From Candidatus Bathyarchaeota archaeon (GTDB lineage Archaea; Thermoproteota; Bathyarchaeia; JAPDIZ01): a stretch of DNA of 64,000 nucleotides. This document shows, one piece after another, positions 52,869 through 64,000 of the stretch; within the stretch, counting starts at the first letter, position 1, and the number at the start of each line of letters is the position of its first letter. Below the pieces are notes generated by a model. It saw nothing but the letters and a program-made list of their open reading frames with translations. It was not told where the DNA came from and searched no databases. Position numbers and translations under genes: made by a program. The stretch covers positions 310,001 to 374,000 of the forward strand of contig JAPDIZ010000002.1 of assembly GCA_029259355.1 (NCBI GenBank). The letters are read 5' to 3'.

Positions 52869-53231
52869 TTAGCAGATTAGGCTCGAAGAAGCCAACACCC
52901 TAAGAAAAATGAACTGATTTCGGTCAATCTCACTAAGCAGCGTGGCAATCACACCAATTTCGGCTTCGTCAAGCCCAAGAACTTGATTCTTAATATCTTC
53001 TACCCTCTGCTGCGAAGAAGCATGTTCCAAAGCATTTTCCAGTATACGCCTCAACGCGCTTCGAGTCTCTGGCCTACCCCTTTCAAAGAGCTCATTTGCT
53101 ACGGCTCTAGGTATTACAAGAGAAAAACAGGCCTTCTCAAGCTCCAAAACCTTGTCGTACAAACCGAGTTGCGCAAAAACAATGATAGCTGAGGAATCAA
53201 ATACCAAAAACGCCTTTTTTCGGCTATGCAA
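52869..53231 (-). CDS. PIN-like toxin, COG2405 type (possibly C-terminally truncated)
   Basis: LVFDSSAIIVFAQLGLYDKV starts like PIN proteins that pair with UPF0175 antitoxins. VIPRAVANELFERG and VLGLDEAEIGVIATLL give the next acidic positions. The family usually continues with a DD-x-x-A-R segment, but here the protein ends in LRVLASSSLIC, so the last catalytic strand may be missing. It overlaps the upstream UPF0175-like gene by 8 bp. It may be inactive or frame-damaged near 52920. Confidence 0.65.
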   Translation of the reverse strand: MHSRKKAFLVFDSSAIIVFAQLGLYDKVLELEKACFSLVIPRAVANELFERGRPETRSALRRILENALEHASSQQRVEDIKNQVLGLDEAEIGVIATLLSEIDRNQFIFLRVLASSSLIC

Positions 53232-53829
53232 GGCCGAAGTCCTCTAATGAAGCCTCAAAAGGCTTAATTCCTCGCTTCTTCGCCTCCTCCAACATCTCCT
53301 CAACACTCACACCAGCAAGCTTAGCAGCCATGCCCAAGCTCACAACTCCTCTTGAAAGTATTCTCAAAGCAATCTGTCGCCGGCGAGACATTATTCTATC
53401 AAACACATCTGACTTCTCAACATACTCAGGATAATTAACGTAGATATATAGTAAGAGCTCCTCCTGATTAAGCTCCTCTAAAAATCCTTTAACTCGCGAC
53501 AAAAGATCTCTGAAATCGGGTGGCAGAGCTTCCCACTCAGAGCTTACCTTAGCCAAGCCTTCACTAGTAAGACTAATCCTACCTCCATGAACAACTTCAA
53601 CCAACCTATAGTCTCGCAAAGCGCTCAACGCATCATCAACCAGCTCGCTGTACGGACCCTTTTTATATCCCTTAAGCTCTGCTTTTTCCCTCAGCTTCTC
53701 CAAACCCCTAGACAAGACAAAAAGCTCCTTCTGCAGATGGAGCTGGCTAGCCACTCCCTGCCTAGGAGGTGCATACAACAAGAACATAATGTATTCTTCT
53801 ATCCTAAACTCCTCAGACACCATAAACAC
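53224..53829 (-). CDS. UPF0175-type antitoxin fused to an N-terminal winged-helix-like domain
   Basis: The C-terminal ~55 residues (ALRILSRGVVSLGMAAKLAG, VSVEEMLEEAKKRGIKP) match the UPF0175 helix-turn-helix antitoxin pattern. The N-terminal ~95 residues (LLYAPPRQGVASQLHLQKEL, KGPYSELVDDALSALRDYRL, GGRISLTSEG) resemble a winged-helix sensor-like domain seen on archaeal antitoxins. Ordinary UPF0175 proteins have ~90 residues; this has 201. It overlaps the PIN gene, supporting a toxin-antitoxin pair. Confidence 0.7.
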   Translation of the reverse strand: MFMVSEEFRIEEYIMFLLYAPPRQGVASQLHLQKELFVLSRGLEKLREKAELKGYKKGPYSELVDDALSALRDYRLVEVVHGGRISLTSEGLAKVSSEWEALPPDFRDLLSRVKGFLEELNQEELLLYIYVNYPEYVEKSDVFDRIMSRRRQIALRILSRGVVSLGMAAKLAGVSVEEMLEEAKKRGIKPFEASLEDFGLA

Positions 53830-54183: not shown

Positions 54184-54549
54184 TCATTCCAGTATTGACT
54201 TACTGATGTCCTCATAGCTCTTAACGACATAAACACGAGACTTCATCAGAGCTTTTTGCGCATAGCCATCGATTCTCCCCCTAGAGCAGTGAACAAAAAC
54301 TTTAACGATTTTATGCGGTTGGTGTTGAGACACAAGGACTGAATAGGAGTCCTGCAGCTGCTTGATTGCTTTGTTTGCATCACTTAGTGTGATACGCCCA
54401 TCTTTAGCTTCAACGAGTATCAGAAGATCTTTTACGGAATCCCTTATAACCAGATCACAGCCCCACCCATATGCCCTATCAAACCTCCAAGCATGGGAGC
54501 CAGAGCTACAGTAGACCCTGCAGCGGTTAACACGAATGTTTATTGGCAC
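54184..54549 (-). CDS. Small PD-(D/E)xK-like nuclease partner of the ATPase gene
   Basis: 121 residues. GWGCDLVIRDS followed by LLILVEAKDGRI gives Asp32 and the Glu47-x-Lys49 pair, spaced as in a PD-(D/E)xK core. A helix (LSDANKAIKQLQDS) follows, as in Holliday-resolvase- or restriction-like folds. The C-terminus (SRVYVVKSYEDISKSI) resembles the strand-helix end. GTG 54549 overlaps the ATPase stop by 10 bp, so the two proteins are made together. A nuclease role is inferred from these motifs; no close family is recognised. Confidence 0.65.
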   Translation of the reverse strand: MPINIRVNRCRVYCSSGSHAWRFDRAYGWGCDLVIRDSVKDLLILVEAKDGRITLSDANKAIKQLQDSYSVLVSQHQPHKIVKVFVHCSRGRIDGYAQKALMKSRVYVVKSYEDISKSILE

Positions 54550-55940
54550 ATGCGAACCCTTTCCTCAACGCGAACATATCGATTAGCAAGTTCACGAAGC
54601 ACCGCGTCTATACAAGTTTCAGAGAGCCCTTCATTAGAGACTTCTAGTGGGGTTACTTCTCCACTTCTCCTCTCAACGACGTAGACAGCGACATCCTCAG
54701 GGTTTAGCCCCTCCTCTCTCCGATAACCAAGCTTTTCCTTTTCTTCGGGAGATAGCTTACTCAGCCTAACTAGATTGTTGACTTCGTCGATAATGTGAAC
54801 ACTATGGGTGGTCGCCACAACATCAACATCATACCTAGAGAGCAGAGCAAGAGCTCTAGCAACAGCGCTTTGAGCATCAGGATGTAAGTGGGCTTCTGGC
54901 TCCTCAACCATAAACATGTAGCCCGGAGCCAGTACATGTCTCATAGCGCCTACTAGGGGAGCGATTTCCCTAGCTCCCGAAGGAGCTCTTTCCAACGGAA
55001 TCTTGAGGTTATGCGTTCTATCGACGACCAAAACCTTAGGTGTTTCTTGCCTAGCGAAGTGAAACTCCATCTCAAGCAAATTCTCGAGAAAATCAGCTAT
55101 CGAAGCGATTTTCTCATCTTTGATCTCTGGCGCCATCGAAACCAACTGCTTAAAAAACTCTCGATCAATCGCACTAACCGTTAAAACCTGCTCACGCATC
55201 GAAATCAGTACGTGAGATACAGGAGCAAGAAACCTTAGCATACCAGCCCTGCCATCAGGAGATATAAAGACATCTGGTACAAGCGGACAGTAGCCGAAAG
55301 CGCAGAAAACTAAACTCGGGATACCCAGCGTTAGCTGGTCGCCGAACCGTATCACGTCACTTAAGGGCAGTAACAAGGATTCGACAACCTCTTTATCGGG
55401 GCCTAAAACCTCGAGCGTAATAGTATTCCATACAGGAGGCTCTACGTTGTAGTCAAAAAACTTTTCGAAAAAATCAATTGCTTCAGGGAAATTCTCAACC
55501 CTAAAGCTACCATCTTTGTTAATCTTAGCGCTAAGAATGGGTATGTCGTTGTCCGAGATTACCGTGATCTCCGCATAATCTCCACTACCACCGACAAGCT
55601 CTGAAACAGAAGATACCATGAAAACGTCTTCAATAAGCCTCTTTAGAGATTTCTCAATTAACCTATCCATGTTTTCAACAAACCATCGGTAAAACGACGA
55701 GATCTGCTCCCTAACTTCCTCACTACTTCCCTTCTTAGAAAGCTCTAGAATCTTTGGAAAAATCCTGCCGATGTGCTCAGAGATTTCCCTAAAATCAGGT
55801 TCTGCATTAATCAAGGTCCATAGGAGGTAGAGGAGGTAGGACTTACCAGATGCGTTAGCACCAACAAATAGCGTTAAGGGCTTTACCTCAACATCTGCTT
55901 TAGCAATAGGTCCAAAGTTCTTTACAGCAAGTTTCAACAC
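54540..55940 (-). CDS. AAA/ABC-type ATPase, DUF3696/OLD-like
   Basis: LKLAVKNFGPIAKADVEVKP then FVGANASGKS (Walker A, 27-34) begin an ABC/SMC-like ATPase. APSGAREIAPLVGAMRH is a signature-like segment. MFMVEEPEAHLHPDAQSA is Walker B with the D-loop region, and VVATTHSVHIIDEVN is the H-loop. About 300 residues of helical insert lie between. GTG 55940, 5 bp after GGAGG, gives this start; the open stretch to 56012 is not family-like. OLD-family ATPases pair with nucleases in phage defence. Here the nuclease is a separate overlapping gene. Confidence 0.82.
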   Translation of the reverse strand: MLKLAVKNFGPIAKADVEVKPLTLFVGANASGKSYLLYLLWTLINAEPDFREISEHIGRIFPKILELSKKGSSEEVREQISSFYRWFVENMDRLIEKSLKRLIEDVFMVSSVSELVGGSGDYAEITVISDNDIPILSAKINKDGSFRVENFPEAIDFFEKFFDYNVEPPVWNTITLEVLGPDKEVVESLLLPLSDVIRFGDQLTLGIPSLVFCAFGYCPLVPDVFISPDGRAGMLRFLAPVSHVLISMREQVLTVSAIDREFFKQLVSMAPEIKDEKIASIADFLENLLEMEFHFARQETPKVLVVDRTHNLKIPLERAPSGAREIAPLVGAMRHVLAPGYMFMVEEPEAHLHPDAQSAVARALALLSRYDVDVVATTHSVHIIDEVNNLVRLSKLSPEEKEKLGYRREEGLNPEDVAVYVVERRSGEVTPLEVSNEGLSETCIDAVLRELANRYVRVEERVRMCQ

Positions 55941-56067
55941 ACAATCCTCCAGCTTCGCATACCACAACGACAACTTATATCCTTTCCCTAGACAGCCCCA
56001 AAGTATTGCCAAAGAAAAAGAGACTAAGAGGTATTCAGACTACACTCTCTCCAAAGCAACACAGGCA

Positions 56068-57502: not shown

Positions 57503-58444
57503 CTATACTAAGCCCAGCTCATTTTCAAGCTCCTTAACCCGCTTCTTTTCCTCATAGAACTCGCGAAGCCTTTCAACGGTTATCACCCTAAAGACGCTTT
57601 CAACCTCGTGGAAGGTGCCTGAGATCCACTTCATAGCTTCCTCCATTCTCTCACGAGTCGTAACCAAAACTGGAATCGAGTTCCAAACATCGTAGGCATG
57701 CTTAAGTTTAACCAAATCAGCGTAGAGATTGCCTGCCAAACTAACCTCAAAGACCATATAGGGCACGCTTTTAGGAGTCCTACGCCACACAACATCAACA
57801 AACTTGTTCTCCAAAGGATATTCCTTAACCGGGTTCTTGCCCTGAATAAGCCCAATCTCATAGATCAAATCCCTTACTTCGTCATGACTAGGTGTAGGCG
57901 AAGGCCTCCTAACTATGTTTCTTGCCCTAAGTTCATTCAAAATAGCCTCAAAAGACGAATACGAATAAGTAACGACACCACCTCTCTGATCGCCAAAGAT
58001 AAAAAGCGACCATCTATCCGCAAACGCCTTTAGAGCACGTACACCAAAAGCCGAAGCCAATTCCTCCCTTCTCACAGGCCTAAAACCATCAAACCACTCG
58101 AGCCTAAACGGCGAAGACCTAGAAGGCTCATGCAACCGAGGCAAAACAAACCTCAACCTAATCTGAAGAGGATAGCTTCGAGGACCCCTAACCCAGTAAT
58201 CCACAGGCTCCGAAGACTCCCACTTATCCACCACCTCACAAAAAGCCCAAACACCCCGAACACCACCATGCTCAAAATAAAGCAACACAGGCATACCACG
58301 CTCCAAAAGCTCCCACTTCCTTCGATTAGTGCCTAATTTATCAATCCTAAAACCCCACAAACCCTCCTCCAAAATCGACCTAAAATGAGGATGCGAAGAA
58401 CCCACAACATTAACCAAAGCACCAATTTGTGGCATAAGCCTCAC
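57503..58444 (-). CDS. EVE-like (PUA-fold) domain fused to a nuclease-like C-terminus
   Basis: Residues ~8-105 (HPHFRSILEEGLWGFRIDKL, LERGMPVLLYFEHGGVRGVW) follow the pattern of EVE domains, which bind modified bases in DNA or RNA. After a linker, residues ~190-285 (HDEVRDLIYEIGLIQGKNP, FVDVVWRR, YMVFEVSLAGN) look like a PD-(D/E)xK fold: conserved Asp, then Glu, but the usual Lys is Ser (EVS). EVE domains occur fused to restriction nucleases that attack modified DNA. It is divergent from the DUF499 gene across 252 bp. The fusion reading is moderate in confidence. Confidence 0.68.
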   Translation of the reverse strand: MRLMPQIGALVNVVGSSHPHFRSILEEGLWGFRIDKLGTNRRKWELLERGMPVLLYFEHGGVRGVWAFCEVVDKWESSEPVDYWVRGPRSYPLQIRLRFVLPRLHEPSRSSPFRLEWFDGFRPVRREELASAFGVRALKAFADRWSLFIFGDQRGGVVTYSYSSFEAILNELRARNIVRRPSPTPSHDEVRDLIYEIGLIQGKNPVKEYPLENKFVDVVWRRTPKSVPYMVFEVSLAGNLYADLVKLKHAYDVWNSIPVLVTTRERMEEAMKWISGTFHEVESVFRVITVERLREFYEEKKRVKELENELGLV

Positions 58445-58696: not shown

Positions 58697-61600
58697 ATGG
58701 CTCAAGGATGGAAAGCATTTGACGAGATAGAGAAAGGAGAAATTACTGACGCTTCGTTTGTCGCAAACCTCTGGAGAGTATGTATTGGTGATCCCTATGT
58801 AGATGATCGATATAAGGATCCTAGAAAGTTCTTTGAGAGAACGTACATCTCTGAAGGACTCTATTACGTGCTACGAAATGCTCTTCAGAGAGTCGCAAGC
58901 GGAGAAGGCGAGCCCGTAATCCTTCTCAGAACCACGTTTGGAGGAGGAAAAACCCACACCCTCATAGCTATCTATCACGCTCTGACTCATCCAGAAGTAT
59001 TGAAAGAGCTTACCGCTCTGAAAGGTCTTGCATCTATTGATGACATTCGTCCTGTAGTGATAGCTTTTGATGGAGCCGAACTTGACCCTCTTCGACTGCT
59101 TGATAAGTATGGAGCTCGAAATATGTGGCAATTTTTGGCGCTACAACTTTCTCAAAAAATCTCCTCTGAGATTACAAAGGAGTTTGTTTCAAAATATGCA
59201 GATCCCCACCAAGTACCTGGTGCCGAAGCCATTGGGGAAGTTCTAAGGGATATCGAACAGCTGGGGTATGCCCCAGTTTTTCTTTTGGACGAGGTTCCTG
59301 AATACGTAAGGCGGCTTCAGATATCTGATGAGAAACAGGCCCAAGCAACTCTTCGCTTCATAGACTCGCTCGCTAGAGCCGTTGCATCCTCCGGAAAATC
59401 GCTCCTAGTAATCGCGATCCCTGACGTAGAGCAATACATGGATATTAACCGCCTTATGCTAAGTGCCCTCGAGAGTTTAGAGCGCGTTGCACGTCCGAAA
59501 AACATCGTCGGTAGAGGAGAAGCGGCTCAGGTACTTCGTCAGGCCTTGCTAAAAGATGTGGATATGAACTTAGGTATGAAAAAGGTCGATGAGTATTATC
59601 GGATATACGAAGAACATTCACAGCAATTTCCGCCTTATGTCTCTACAAAAGATTTTTTGGAAAAAATGCGTAGCCACTACCCTTTCCATCCACAGTATGT
59701 TGACCTTCTTTACGACAAAATATCAACGCTGTCCTCATTCCAGAGCACAAGAGATGTCCTAAGACTAACTGCTAGGGTACTACACGGCATGCATCTTCGT
59801 GGAGATGACGGAGAACTAGTGATGGTTTCAGATATTGATGCGGCTAATCCTTCAATTTTAGATGAATTACTAGATAGACACGGATATCGTAGCCTAAGGG
59901 TAGCTGTGGAAAGCGACCTCGAGATCGCTAAACCAATAGATGAACAGTGGATTATGAGGGGTTTGCCCAGACTCGCCCTTCCAGTTTACTCCACAGTGTT
60001 AGTCTATAGCCTAGCTGGGGAAGCAGCTTCTCTAAAGGACATAACTCTTGCGACAATACGGCCAAGAATGCTACCTCATCCAGTAGCTAGCATCCTTGAA
60101 CAATTCCATGAACAAGCCCCTCACCTGCGCCAAACTAAGATCGATGGCGAAAATAGGTACGTGATCACAGAGCGGGTTAAGTGGCGCAGGCTTGTGGAAA
60201 ACCTAGCTAGAGAAGTAGAGGACGAAGATGCTCGAGAACTGTTTAAAGATCAGTTAATAAGCGCGACAAAAAATTGGGGTCGAAGAATATTTCGCAACAT
60301 CATTGTTTGGCCGACCTCTCCAGCGGATATAAGTGACGACCCATCTCTGAAAGCCATCTTTCTCGATCCATCTCTGGTGATGAAGTGCGTTGCCCAAAAT
60401 ACCTTAAATTCGCTTCTAGATTTCTATGCCTTTTACGCCGATCCCGCTAAACAACAATATAGAGAGTATCGGAATTCATTGATCTTCTTTATACCAGATC
60501 TTCGCATATATGATGAGGCATTAAAAACAGCTAAGCGTATTATAGCAGCTAACAGAATTAAGCAAGCTAAAGAAACCTATGCGCTAACAAATGAAGATCT
60601 CGAAGAAATAAATGATGCCATAGCTGAATGGCTGAACAAGAAGCTTAGAGATGAAATTCCAGCAGTAATGTATGGAGAAGTCTACTTCCCCATAGGTGGA
60701 AAAGAAGGGGGGCTTAAATACGGAAGCAGCAAGTTCAGAGAAGCAAATCCAATCGAGGCTGCTCAAAAAGTGCTGTATGAAAACAGTAAAGTAGTTAGAG
60801 AAATTTCGGATGAATATACGTTTGAAGTGATAAGGGGAGTTTTTGAAACAGGTATTGAAGAGATATCGATGGGGGAGTTAGCCGAAATCTTTGCCAAAGA
60901 TCCAGAAAAACCGTACGTTCTAGGTGCAAGAGAGAAAATCCTTGAAAACATACGTAAGCTAGTGAGAGAGGGTCTTTTGGTTCTACGGAAAGGTGATAAG
61001 GTATACTGTAGCGTAGATGTATGGCCGATCACAAGCGGAGATTCTCTGATATCTGGTGAGATAGCTGTCAAAAAAGGCCTTTGTGTCAAAGTCAACGGAA
61101 GATATAGGCCTCCCATACCTGAGGGATGCATAAACCCGAGATGGAGTGAAGAAGAAGCTAGATGGATTTGTGAAGAGGAGATAGAAGAGGAATCACCAAT
61201 TGAAAGCGAGGAAGAAGAGCAAAAACCTATTGAAGAAATCCAGCCAATAATCTTAGAGAATGCCACACTTGATCAGCTGGTACAAGAACTCCAGCAAAAA
61301 GGAGAATGCGTGCTAGAGAATCTCAGTATATATCTAACTCAGCCCACAGATAGGACGAGCGAGGAAATCAAATTCCTAAAATCGATTTCGCAAAGCTTTA
61401 CCTACTTAGAACAGAGAGGATATAAAGAGACTCTGTCGCTATTTGCTGAAATCCAAGATCCCGAAGGTCTTAAAAAACTCAAACTAACTGGAGACATCAG
61501 CACTTCCAGAGCAATAAGGGAAGTATTGGATCTCTTAGATAGATTGGGGTCAAAGACTATGCGATATGAGCTAACTTTAACTTACGGAGGTGGAGAACAG

Positions 61601-61714
61601 CGACTTGTTTCAGCTGATGAAGTGGTTAAGCAAGCAATAGGAATTAGGCTGCTACTAGACAAATATAAGACTCATAGGTTTAGTGCTAGGGCAAGGCTTA
61701 GGGCAGCAGCCTAG
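58697..61714 (+). CDS. DUF499 (COG1483) large ATPase
   Basis: 1005 residues. TTFGGGKTHTLIAIYHAL contains Walker A (79-86), and YAPVFLLDEVPEYVRRL contains Walker B (195-200). VVIAFDGAELDPLRL and the ~600 following residues match large DUF499 ATPases. Residues ~830-860 are an acidic linker, and the last ~150 residues are a separate helical and sheet domain. DUF499 and DUF1156 proteins recur together in predicted archaeal and bacterial defence loci; here DUF1156 is next door but convergent. ATG 58697 has AGGTAAG ahead. The gene's codons are more A/T-rich than the housekeeping region. Confidence 0.88.
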   Translation: MAQGWKAFDEIEKGEITDASFVANLWRVCIGDPYVDDRYKDPRKFFERTYISEGLYYVLRNALQRVASGEGEPVILLRTTFGGGKTHTLIAIYHALTHPEVLKELTALKGLASIDDIRPVVIAFDGAELDPLRLLDKYGARNMWQFLALQLSQKISSEITKEFVSKYADPHQVPGAEAIGEVLRDIEQLGYAPVFLLDEVPEYVRRLQISDEKQAQATLRFIDSLARAVASSGKSLLVIAIPDVEQYMDINRLMLSALESLERVARPKNIVGRGEAAQVLRQALLKDVDMNLGMKKVDEYYRIYEEHSQQFPPYVSTKDFLEKMRSHYPFHPQYVDLLYDKISTLSSFQSTRDVLRLTARVLHGMHLRGDDGELVMVSDIDAANPSILDELLDRHGYRSLRVAVESDLEIAKPIDEQWIMRGLPRLALPVYSTVLVYSLAGEAASLKDITLATIRPRMLPHPVASILEQFHEQAPHLRQTKIDGENRYVITERVKWRRLVENLAREVEDEDARELFKDQLISATKNWGRRIFRNIIVWPTSPADISDDPSLKAIFLDPSLVMKCVAQNTLNSLLDFYAFYADPAKQQYREYRNSLIFFIPDLRIYDEALKTAKRIIAANRIKQAKETYALTNEDLEEINDAIAEWLNKKLRDEIPAVMYGEVYFPIGGKEGGLKYGSSKFREANPIEAAQKVLYENSKVVREISDEYTFEVIRGVFETGIEEISMGELAEIFAKDPEKPYVLGAREKILENIRKLVREGLLVLRKGDKVYCSVDVWPITSGDSLISGEIAVKKGLCVKVNGRYRPPIPEGCINPRWSEEEARWICEEEIEEESPIESEEEEQKPIEEIQPIILENATLDQLVQELQQKGECVLENLSIYLTQPTDRTSEEIKFLKSISQSFTYLEQRGYKETLSLFAEIQDPEGLKKLKLTGDISTSRAIREVLDLLDRLGSKTMRYELTLTYGGGEQRLVSADEVVKQAIGIRLLLDKYKTHRFSARARLRAAA

Positions 61715-64000
61715 CCTAAGAACTTATCCAATGTGGTTGGGGTTTTTCGCTTATTTTCATCAATTGTCATGTGGGACAAGCCCTGTCGATTTCCTCCCTC
61801 CATGACAAGTAGCCCATGCAGTGCCGTCTTCTCCAAGTCGTTGGGTTCACCTTCAGCAAGAAGGATTTCGATAAATCGGCGTACGATGTTATTCATTCTA
61901 TAACCTGTTTTTTCAAAAACCTCCTGAGCTCCTATCTGGCCCACATCCAAGTATCGAGTAACAGCAGCTGCAAGCGCGTCTACAAGTGGAGTAGTAGTCG
62001 ATAGATGTGTGGGCGCAATTTCAGTTAATGGCTTAATTGAATAGAATTTAACCCCCTCTCGAGACATACTTTTGCCACAATACCTCTTGATAAAAGCCTC
62101 GTGATCAACCCCAAATCCGTAGCCTAAGAACCTCAAGTTGTCATACTCAGGCTCCCCGTAGACTACCCTAGCCAATAGGTACATGCCACTCCATGGATCT
62201 AGACCAGCAGACACCATACGATCCAAGACAATGTGTGAAACAACGTCAGATGCGTACCTAAGAACATCTTCTATATCAACAGGCTTTCCCTCGATGGTAA
62301 ATAGAGGCCACCACTTTCCTACTACGCCAAAGGCCGTTCCCATACCCATTAGAAGAGCATCAGCGTAGTTTAAACCATAACTAAGTACAGTATCTACGCT
62401 TTCTTCAATAGCTTTCTTAACCTCAGCCATAAGTGCAGCATCCCAAACTCCTTTAGAAGCTTCTTCCCTAGGCTCTAGCGCAATCACTAAGAGAGTCTTT
62501 ACAGCAGCCTTTCCAACAATGTGTATGGACCTAGGTTGTTCAGAGGCAAACCCCCAAACCGCGATTGGCTTAAAACCAGCCTCCAGAGCAGCATTCAGCA
62601 TCACTCTTAAGCCACGGGTACTCCTATGAGCATACATAAACACCGCAAGACCATTTGGCTTCAAACAGCTTCGAACAAGCTCCAAAACCTCCTTAAGCTT
62701 CTGCTCAAACCACTTTTCGTTTCGACCACGCGTTCTATTAACAACAATTTCTTCCTCTTTAGGCGTAAGCTCCGTCGAAAAAGCCTCAGGATATAGCTTA
62801 CCAACGCTTCGTTTAAACCAAACGTAGAAGAAATCGCTCAATTCGCAGTACTGCACATTAGCATAGTACGGGGGATCCGTTATTACGTAGTCGAACTCAC
62901 CGAGTTCTACATAAAGGCTGGGATCTGCTGCATCACCTAATACTACGCGAATACTTCCTTTAACATCCCTTAGTAACTCCACAATGCGTTCAAGAGCTTT
63001 AACGATTCCAGTATTACTAAAAAGCACCCAATCCAGCAATCCCGTTCCTTTGGTTAAAAGATCACCTTCTCCAAAATCTTGGCCAAATTCAAAAGCATGC
63101 CTACTGAAGGTATGATTTATCGAGCCCTTACCATAAGGATCCCAAGTAGTTATCGCTGAGTTGTAGTCCAGCAGCCTTCCATGTGCAAGAGCAAGGTATG
63201 TAACCACCGCTTTAGCATATTCATCATCATAACCTTCCCCAATCATTTTATCATATGCTTCTCGGATCAACGAAATTAAGGTTATATGTACCAGAAGCTG
63301 CCTTGCATTAAAGAGTTTGTAGAAGGAACCCATTTCACGTGATAGAATTTCTCTAGTTTTATCACCATGAGGTATTTTTTCTGTAGGCACTAAATCCTCC
63401 ATGAGTAGTAGATGCCATCGTTCTCGTAAATCTTTTTCAGCAGTTTCTATTGCTTTGAACATCTCTTCCGTTGGCTCTACAAACTTCCCTCCTTCCAGTT
63501 TGACAGCTGCTAGAATAGCTGGATGATAGCCATAGAGCTGTTGTTCTTCCCACAGAGCCATTGCTTTAGCATATTGTGCGTGCATAGCTTCAGAGCCTAT
63601 TACGTGTCCTTTGGGACAGGTTAGCTTGGCCTTGCTGTAGTTGCTAAGGGTTTCTTTATCAGTGATGTTTGTTTTCACTACCCTAATCTTGGGTTTGTCT
63701 CCCTCATATTCTAGCTTCATCACATAACCCTGTTTTTTGGAAAGAAAGGGGTTGGCTAATGCGGGTACTAATAGGCCGCAGCGGCATCGATAGGTTTTAA
63801 CCCAGATGTAGTTAGTAGGTCTACCCTCTGGGTGGGGTGGGTAGTACTTGGCTAGCCTCTCTTTGGCTTCTTGAAGAAGCCATGTAGCCCATTTCTTTAC
63901 GTCTTTCACTAGTTTTTCGCCGTATCGAAGCGGGTATTCCAGCGTAGCCTTTAACATTACATAGGCTATTGGGTTATACTCGACTGCTACTACCTCTTTA
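61711..64000 (-). CDS. DUF1156 (COG1743) adenine-specific DNA methyltransferase (5' partial)
   Basis: The frame stays open to the window end and beyond ATG 63957 (VVAVEYNPIAYVMLKATLEY), which is the SAM-binding domain's acidic strand region, so the N-terminus is cut off. A zinc-binding segment follows (YRCRCGLLVPALANPFLS...LTCPKGHVI). DYVITDPPYYANVQYCELSD is the catalytic DPPY motif of N6-adenine or N4-cytosine methylases. ~760 residues are visible. It would mark host DNA so that the DUF499/EVE-nuclease set spares it, by analogy with restriction systems. Its stop overlaps that of DUF499. Confidence 0.88.
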   Translation of the reverse strand, partial: KEVVAVEYNPIAYVMLKATLEYPLRYGEKLVKDVKKWATWLLQEAKERLAKYYPPHPEGRPTNYIWVKTYRCRCGLLVPALANPFLSKKQGYVMKLEYEGDKPKIRVVKTNITDKETLSNYSKAKLTCPKGHVIGSEAMHAQYAKAMALWEEQQLYGYHPAILAAVKLEGGKFVEPTEEMFKAIETAEKDLRERWHLLLMEDLVPTEKIPHGDKTREILSREMGSFYKLFNARQLLVHITLISLIREAYDKMIGEGYDDEYAKAVVTYLALAHGRLLDYNSAITTWDPYGKGSINHTFSRHAFEFGQDFGEGDLLTKGTGLLDWVLFSNTGIVKALERIVELLRDVKGSIRVVLGDAADPSLYVELGEFDYVITDPPYYANVQYCELSDFFYVWFKRSVGKLYPEAFSTELTPKEEEIVVNRTRGRNEKWFEQKLKEVLELVRSCLKPNGLAVFMYAHRSTRGLRVMLNAALEAGFKPIAVWGFASEQPRSIHIVGKAAVKTLLVIALEPREEASKGVWDAALMAEVKKAIEESVDTVLSYGLNYADALLMGMGTAFGVVGKWWPLFTIEGKPVDIEDVLRYASDVVSHIVLDRMVSAGLDPWSGMYLLARVVYGEPEYDNLRFLGYGFGVDHEAFIKRYCGKSMSREGVKFYSIKPLTEIAPTHLSTTTPLVDALAAAVTRYLDVGQIGAQEVFEKTGYRMNNIVRRFIEILLAEGEPNDLEKTALHGLLVMEGGNRQGLSHMTIDENKRKTPTTLDKFLG

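Follow-up and report, generated by a model that had tools for sequence, protein, structure and literature searches.

A compact PD-(D/E)xK protein encoded with an OLD-type ATPase in a Bathyarchaeota genome: a probable archaeal relative of the WonAB and PD-T4-4 defence pairs

The 64,000-nucleotide stretch of Candidatus Bathyarchaeota DNA analysed here (the window) carries two overlapping genes on its (-) strand, which a first-pass annotation had described as an ATPase and a 121-residue companion. The ATPase gene (54540..55940) is an ORF of 466 aa with a GTG start, and the gene of the small partner, a putative effector with a PD-(D/E)xK fold (54184..54549), is an ORF of 121 aa that likewise opens with GTG. 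The two genes share 10 bases (54540..54549): the start codon of the partner falls within the ATPase ORF, which ends in ...RMCQ-TAA, and a GAGGAAAGG stretch lies upstream of the start of the 121-aa ORF. Genes that overlap or are spaced near zero are also seen in relatives of the pair, and the overlap is likely to bring about translational coupling. Read from an alternative in-frame TTG at 56012, the ATPase would be 24 aa longer; the starts of its relatives match 55940, and the shorter frame fits better in this comparison.

The motifs reported earlier for both proteins were all confirmed on re-reading, and in the ATPase they are strongly conserved. Across the 18 relatives compared, invariant residues are found in the Walker A motif GANASGKS, part of FVGANASGKS (K33; 55839..55862; G27, N29, G32 and K33), in a D-G-R-A-G motif of putative role (55242..55256; R231 and G233), in the ABC-signature-like APSGARE (54966..54986; S321 and E325), in Walker B and its next loop, EEPEAHLHP (54879..54905; E346, E347, P348, E349, H351, H353 and P354), and in the H-loop TTHS (H379; 54801..54812; T378, H379 and S380). 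Pfam searches returned AAA_15 (2e-24) and AAA_21 (1e-19). The PADLOC models matched were PD-T4-4_A (6.4e-36, with a model that is not specific and also matches in 10/14 control genomes), PDC-M47A (2e-29), AriA (1e-25), GajA (1e-12) and PDC-M29A (2e-11). Relatives in the PDB are OLD (6p74), GajA, PtuA and AriA, and there is distant similarity to RecF/Rad50. The earlier label, OLD/DUF3696-like, thus holds in its first half, given the AAA_15/AAA_21 and PD-T4-4_A matches, and fails in its second, as DUF3696 gave no match at E<=1 in the Pfam search. No Toprim model of Pfam or NCBIfam matched the 466-aa protein, and the ORF stops shortly past the C-terminal part. By motif and profile, the protein is an OLD-type ABC ATPase with Walker A, signature, Walker B and H-loop, and without a nuclease domain of its own.

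The small partner carries the spaced triad D32 (putative metal ligand; 54454..54456), E47 (54409..54411) and K49 (54403..54405), the latter two forming an ExK motif. All three are invariant among ten archaeal partners; among 113 relatives the first position is D in 109 and E in 3, the second is E in 112, and the third is K in 82 and T in 18. The AlphaFold2 model of the protein (core pLDDT about 90) has the element order b-b(D)-b(ExK)-a-b-a-b-a, in which D32 opens one strand and E47/K49 close the following strand, an order as in PD-(D/E)xK cores. A fold lacking a nuclease core, named at the outset as grounds for rejection, was not observed. Foldseek searches with this model returned mostly PD-(D/E)xK enzymes as best matches (EcoO109I, EndoMS, Cdn1, Card1, Can2 and AF1548), each of them weak and none at E<0.001, and the family profile of the partners run against PDB sequences had EndoMS as its best match, at 0.033; profile and models also resemble Hef/XPF folds.

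Profiles alone were informative for this protein: used as a single sequence it gave no significant match in Pfam, NCBIfam, PADLOC or the PDB, and its family members are covered by no Pfam family. A profile built from 77 bacterial/viral partners alone picked out the 121-aa ORF at E 3.7e-5 as the one significant frame among the 340 in the window (next frame 3.4). Family members match the defence nuclease models PDC-M47B (1e-7), PDC-M29B (4e-6) and PD-T4-4_B (6e-5), and Cas4 was also matched; for the window partner itself the best PADLOC model is PDC-M29B at 0.025, with PD-T4-4_B and PDC-M47B reached through relatives only. There is no HNH match in the window partner, which has D-E-x-K instead, and a plasmid search with it gave no match. 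Because the shared triad, the predicted element order and the bacterial/viral profile match agree, the 121-aa protein is read as a PD-(D/E)xK protein with a complete D-E-x-K active site, as had been proposed, and not as a Toprim protein. The description "unusually small" needs qualifying, in that it is true relative to bacterial/viral partners (median 184 aa, range 133-237) and less so among archaeal ones (131 aa, 118-187), several of which are Cys-rich at the N-terminus.

ATPase relatives occur in 24/398 genomes of the phylum, taken to be Thermoproteota, where the next ORF nearly always encodes a small protein. The 125 ATPase loci examined for the association come from archaea, bacteria and viral contigs and hold 3484 ORFs in all, which were searched with a profile of the ten archaeal partners. 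This gave 25 independent matches below 1e-3, every one of them in the slot directly behind the ATPase, a slot that makes up 3.9% of the ORFs (binomial P 5e-36). With an iterated profile, a member lies directly behind the ATPase in 113/125 loci, which were chosen by one ATPase motif, so that such proportions are not population frequencies. The earlier reading had staked itself on a conserved association of the two genes, and this it withstood. Bacterial members have the same gene order and motif as the archaeal pair, and the ATPase scan of viral contigs gave 39 loci, several with ELK/EMK partners. These loci show the compact D-E-x-K partner to be a constant companion of the ATPase across archaea and bacteria.

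For several of the 12 exceptions there is an apparent explanation: the partner seems to be split or frame-shifted at L025, L031 and L043, its frame seems to open further upstream at L075, and at L082 the ATPase frame looks broken. At L042, L119 and L124 the neighbour is another gene, with pentapeptide/ion-channel genes at the last two. At L042 (G116:C1:754070-758149) a related OLD-type ATPase is followed by a 117-aa protein without a Pfam match that looks HEPN-like by eye; here a HEPN-like protein may have taken the place of the small nuclease as effector. In a Thaumarchaeota MAG (L083:2213-5473) a peptidase M3 domain precedes a related ATPase within a single frame of 1087 aa, which could be a genuine fusion or an assembly/frame artefact.

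The first-pass annotation had supposed that this might be an unnamed two-component system. That supposition falls, since the kind has been published, as WonAB, PD-T4-4 and "OLD-ABC ATPase + novel REase" modules, and the corresponding PADLOC models match the ATPase. WonAB, characterised in Vibrio with mutants and phage assays, pairs an OLD-ABC ATPase with a PD-(D/E)xK protein in two genes; defence is lost in WonA ATPase mutants and in WonB K71A, which lacks the active-site lysine (PMC12137116). The window pair has this two-gene layout as well, a small PD-(D/E)xK protein being encoded after the OLD-ABC ATPase; it likewise lacks Toprim and has the same ATPase catalytic motifs. It differs in being archaeal and in the 121-aa length of its partner, and the likeness is drawn from the published description and by way of PADLOC models rather than from the WonB sequence. 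With PD-T4-4, an E. coli system (PMC9519451), it shares a PD-T4-4_A match of the ATPase (6e-36) and a PD-T4-4_B match of the partner's relatives (6e-5), although its own partner has no PD-T4-4_B match and native host and element differ. The bacterial "OLD-ABC ATPase + novel REase" modules (PMC12137116), together with PDC-M47 and PDC-M29, have the same order and motif (PDC-M47A 2e-29, PDC-M47B 1e-7), whereas the archaeal partners are shorter and several have the Cys-rich N-terminus. PARIS (AriAB), Gabija and the OLD nucleases use a related OLD-type ATPase but a Toprim effector, and no Toprim nuclease is found in or beside the window ATPase. Septu and retron PtuAB likewise combine ATPase and small nuclease genes, but with an HNH partner and an ATPase only remotely similar to that of the window.

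What the locus offers is an OLD-type ATPase without Toprim, a D...ExK partner directly behind it and a predicted PD-(D/E)xK fold with individually weak E-values, as in the WonAB kind. We read the pair, with a probability of about 0.75, as an archaeal member of the family of OLD-ABC ATPases with PD-(D/E)xK nucleases, in which the ATPase would gate the nuclease in antiviral defence. Family membership and active site, judged from sequence, are very probable. On this reading, a kind of defence characterised in Vibrio and E. coli would now extend to Thermoproteota archaea, whose non-CRISPR defences have been reported as sparse (PMC12988326).

By analogy with the characterised systems we infer complex formation, gating, a target and an antiviral role for the pair. 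The ATPase would dimerise around ATP and keep the small partner bound at its own C-terminal part; sensing of a viral product would, through ATP turnover or a change of the dimer, free the nuclease to act on nucleic acid, and the infected cell would stop before virus release, in an aborted infection. An antiviral role seems probable on these grounds, and activation of the nuclease under ATPase control is put forward a little less firmly. In WonAB, the toxicity of WonB depends on WonA, and translation halts while genomic DNA stays intact (PMC12137116); RNA is the suggested target. By the same analogy, cellular RNA, with translation shut-off, would be a more probable substrate here than viral DNA, and we give RNA as the target about even odds. 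DNA cleavage, proposed earlier as the assay for the partner, may thus be the wrong one, because activation of WonB stopped translation and left genomic DNA intact.

The same dependence bears on the idea that the two genes form a toxin-antitoxin system, the ATPase simply sequestering a toxic nuclease until it is degraded. A small, toxic-looking nuclease whose gene overlaps that of its partner would suit such a pair, and a PIN/UPF0175 gene pair adjoins; WonB, however, is non-toxic without WonA, which excludes plain sequestration in WonAB, and the window ATPase is a large, highly conserved partner with every catalytic motif kept. We consider this account quite unlikely. In the adjoining pair itself (52869-53829, (-) strand), the gene of a PIN-like protein (PDC-S70-like, 5e-5) overlaps that of a 201-aa protein whose C-terminal domain is UPF0175; this looks like a toxin-antitoxin pair.

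The ATPase, its partner and the PIN-like/UPF0175 pair lie in a region where GC content drops from about 53-55% to 41-46%, from about 52 kb of the window onwards, in a run of defence-type genes. Nearby are a DUF499/HmaC-type AAA+ ATPase of a BREX-related system (58697..61714, (+) strand; Pfam DUF499 2e-33, PADLOC HmaC 2e-65) and a DUF1156/HmaB-type DNA methylase that runs past the window end (61711..63957, (-) strand; NCBIfam DUF1156_antiphage 2e-27, PADLOC HmaB 1e-38). With the DUF499 gene 2.8 kb away, and OLD-ABC/PD-(D/E)XK modules reported as add-ons to BREX-related systems (PMC12839542), the two proteins could be auxiliary subunits of this DUF499/DUF1156 system and not an independent module. 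Relatives of the pair, however, occur in differing neighbourhoods, those of G410 and G130 in the company of transporter genes or unrelated ones and without an evident DUF499-like gene, and across 83 loci the main recurring neighbours are the ATPase and partner families, with no recurring third gene family. Dependence on the BREX-related system is therefore unlikely, though we leave it some weight; given the changing neighbourhoods and the lack of a third family, the pair is best read as a self-contained module within a low-GC defence island.

The setting also bears on a role in DNA repair or recombination, as a RecF/OLD-like clamp with a structure-specific nuclease. The distant RecF/Rad50 similarity of the ATPase and the EndoMS- and Hef/XPF-like profile and models of the partner point that way, while the patchy occurrence in the phylum, the changing neighbours, the matches to defence models and an island setting among other defence genes all argue against it and make it very unlikely.

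A 313-aa protein encoded between this pair and DUF499 (57503-58444, (-) strand) has no Pfam, PADLOC or NCBIfam match; a D...E-x-S stretch in its C-terminal half (FVDVVW...MVFEVS) may be nuclease-like. Past the window end there are genes for a PD-(D/E)xK protein and a helicase, for a further methylase, and for a second OLD-type ATPase with a DUF3226/Toprim protein. The first two, a PDDEXK_1 protein adjoining an AAA_11-type helicase (L129:446-3777), probably serve the DUF499 BREX-related system as its nuclease/helicase part, split in two genes. The second OLD-type ATPase, about 18 kb past the pair on the same contig (L129:9592-11386), has a DUF3226/OLD-like Toprim protein (PDC-M38/AbiL/PARIS-like) as its direct partner; one island thus has both the PD-(D/E)xK and the Toprim version of an ATPase with its effector.

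The full triad D32/E47/K49 is retained in the window copy; at the lysine position of ExK, 29 of the 111 readable partners carry another residue (T, V, L, A, S, C or R). The archaeal clade next to that of the window (its sister, also Thermoproteota; 14 ATPases, support 100) has EET, EEV, EEA or EHT, and further lysine-less partners have ECT (at L046), EDT/EHT/EIT (a second archaeal group), ELC (one more archaeon) and ELT/ELS/EIL/ELR (bacteria). On the ATPase tree, in which 19 nodes are open and weak, the position has changed at least 8 times, and we take the changes to be losses, not gains, since lysine is the majority and catalytic state. Lysine-less partners have dN/dS values of 0.09-0.20, about equal to or below those of their ATPases, which indicates maintained genes under purifying selection. 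Because the sister archaeal partners lack the lysine, the nuclease step is not guaranteed family-wide.

Two candidate replacements were rejected. Many lysine-less partners have a lysine three positions ahead of the Asp, but it is common in ELK partners too, and is thus not compensatory. A His closing the fourth core strand is enriched in lysine-less partners (a basic residue stands there in 19/29, against 3/80), but a comparison of independent pairs on the tree showed no signal. With D and E kept and the genes under purifying selection, the family may tentatively be viewed as a natural series leading from a nuclease either to a nuclease chemistry that works without lysine or to an effector that no longer cuts, a view to which we give somewhat less than even odds. 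Since K71A in WonB abolishes defence, the lysine-less relatives are a ready test of whether ATPase-gated effectors must cut. Lysine-containing and lysine-less versions occur together in single genomes, namely G410 (L017 and L040), G292 (L020 and L043) and G372 (L019 and L044).
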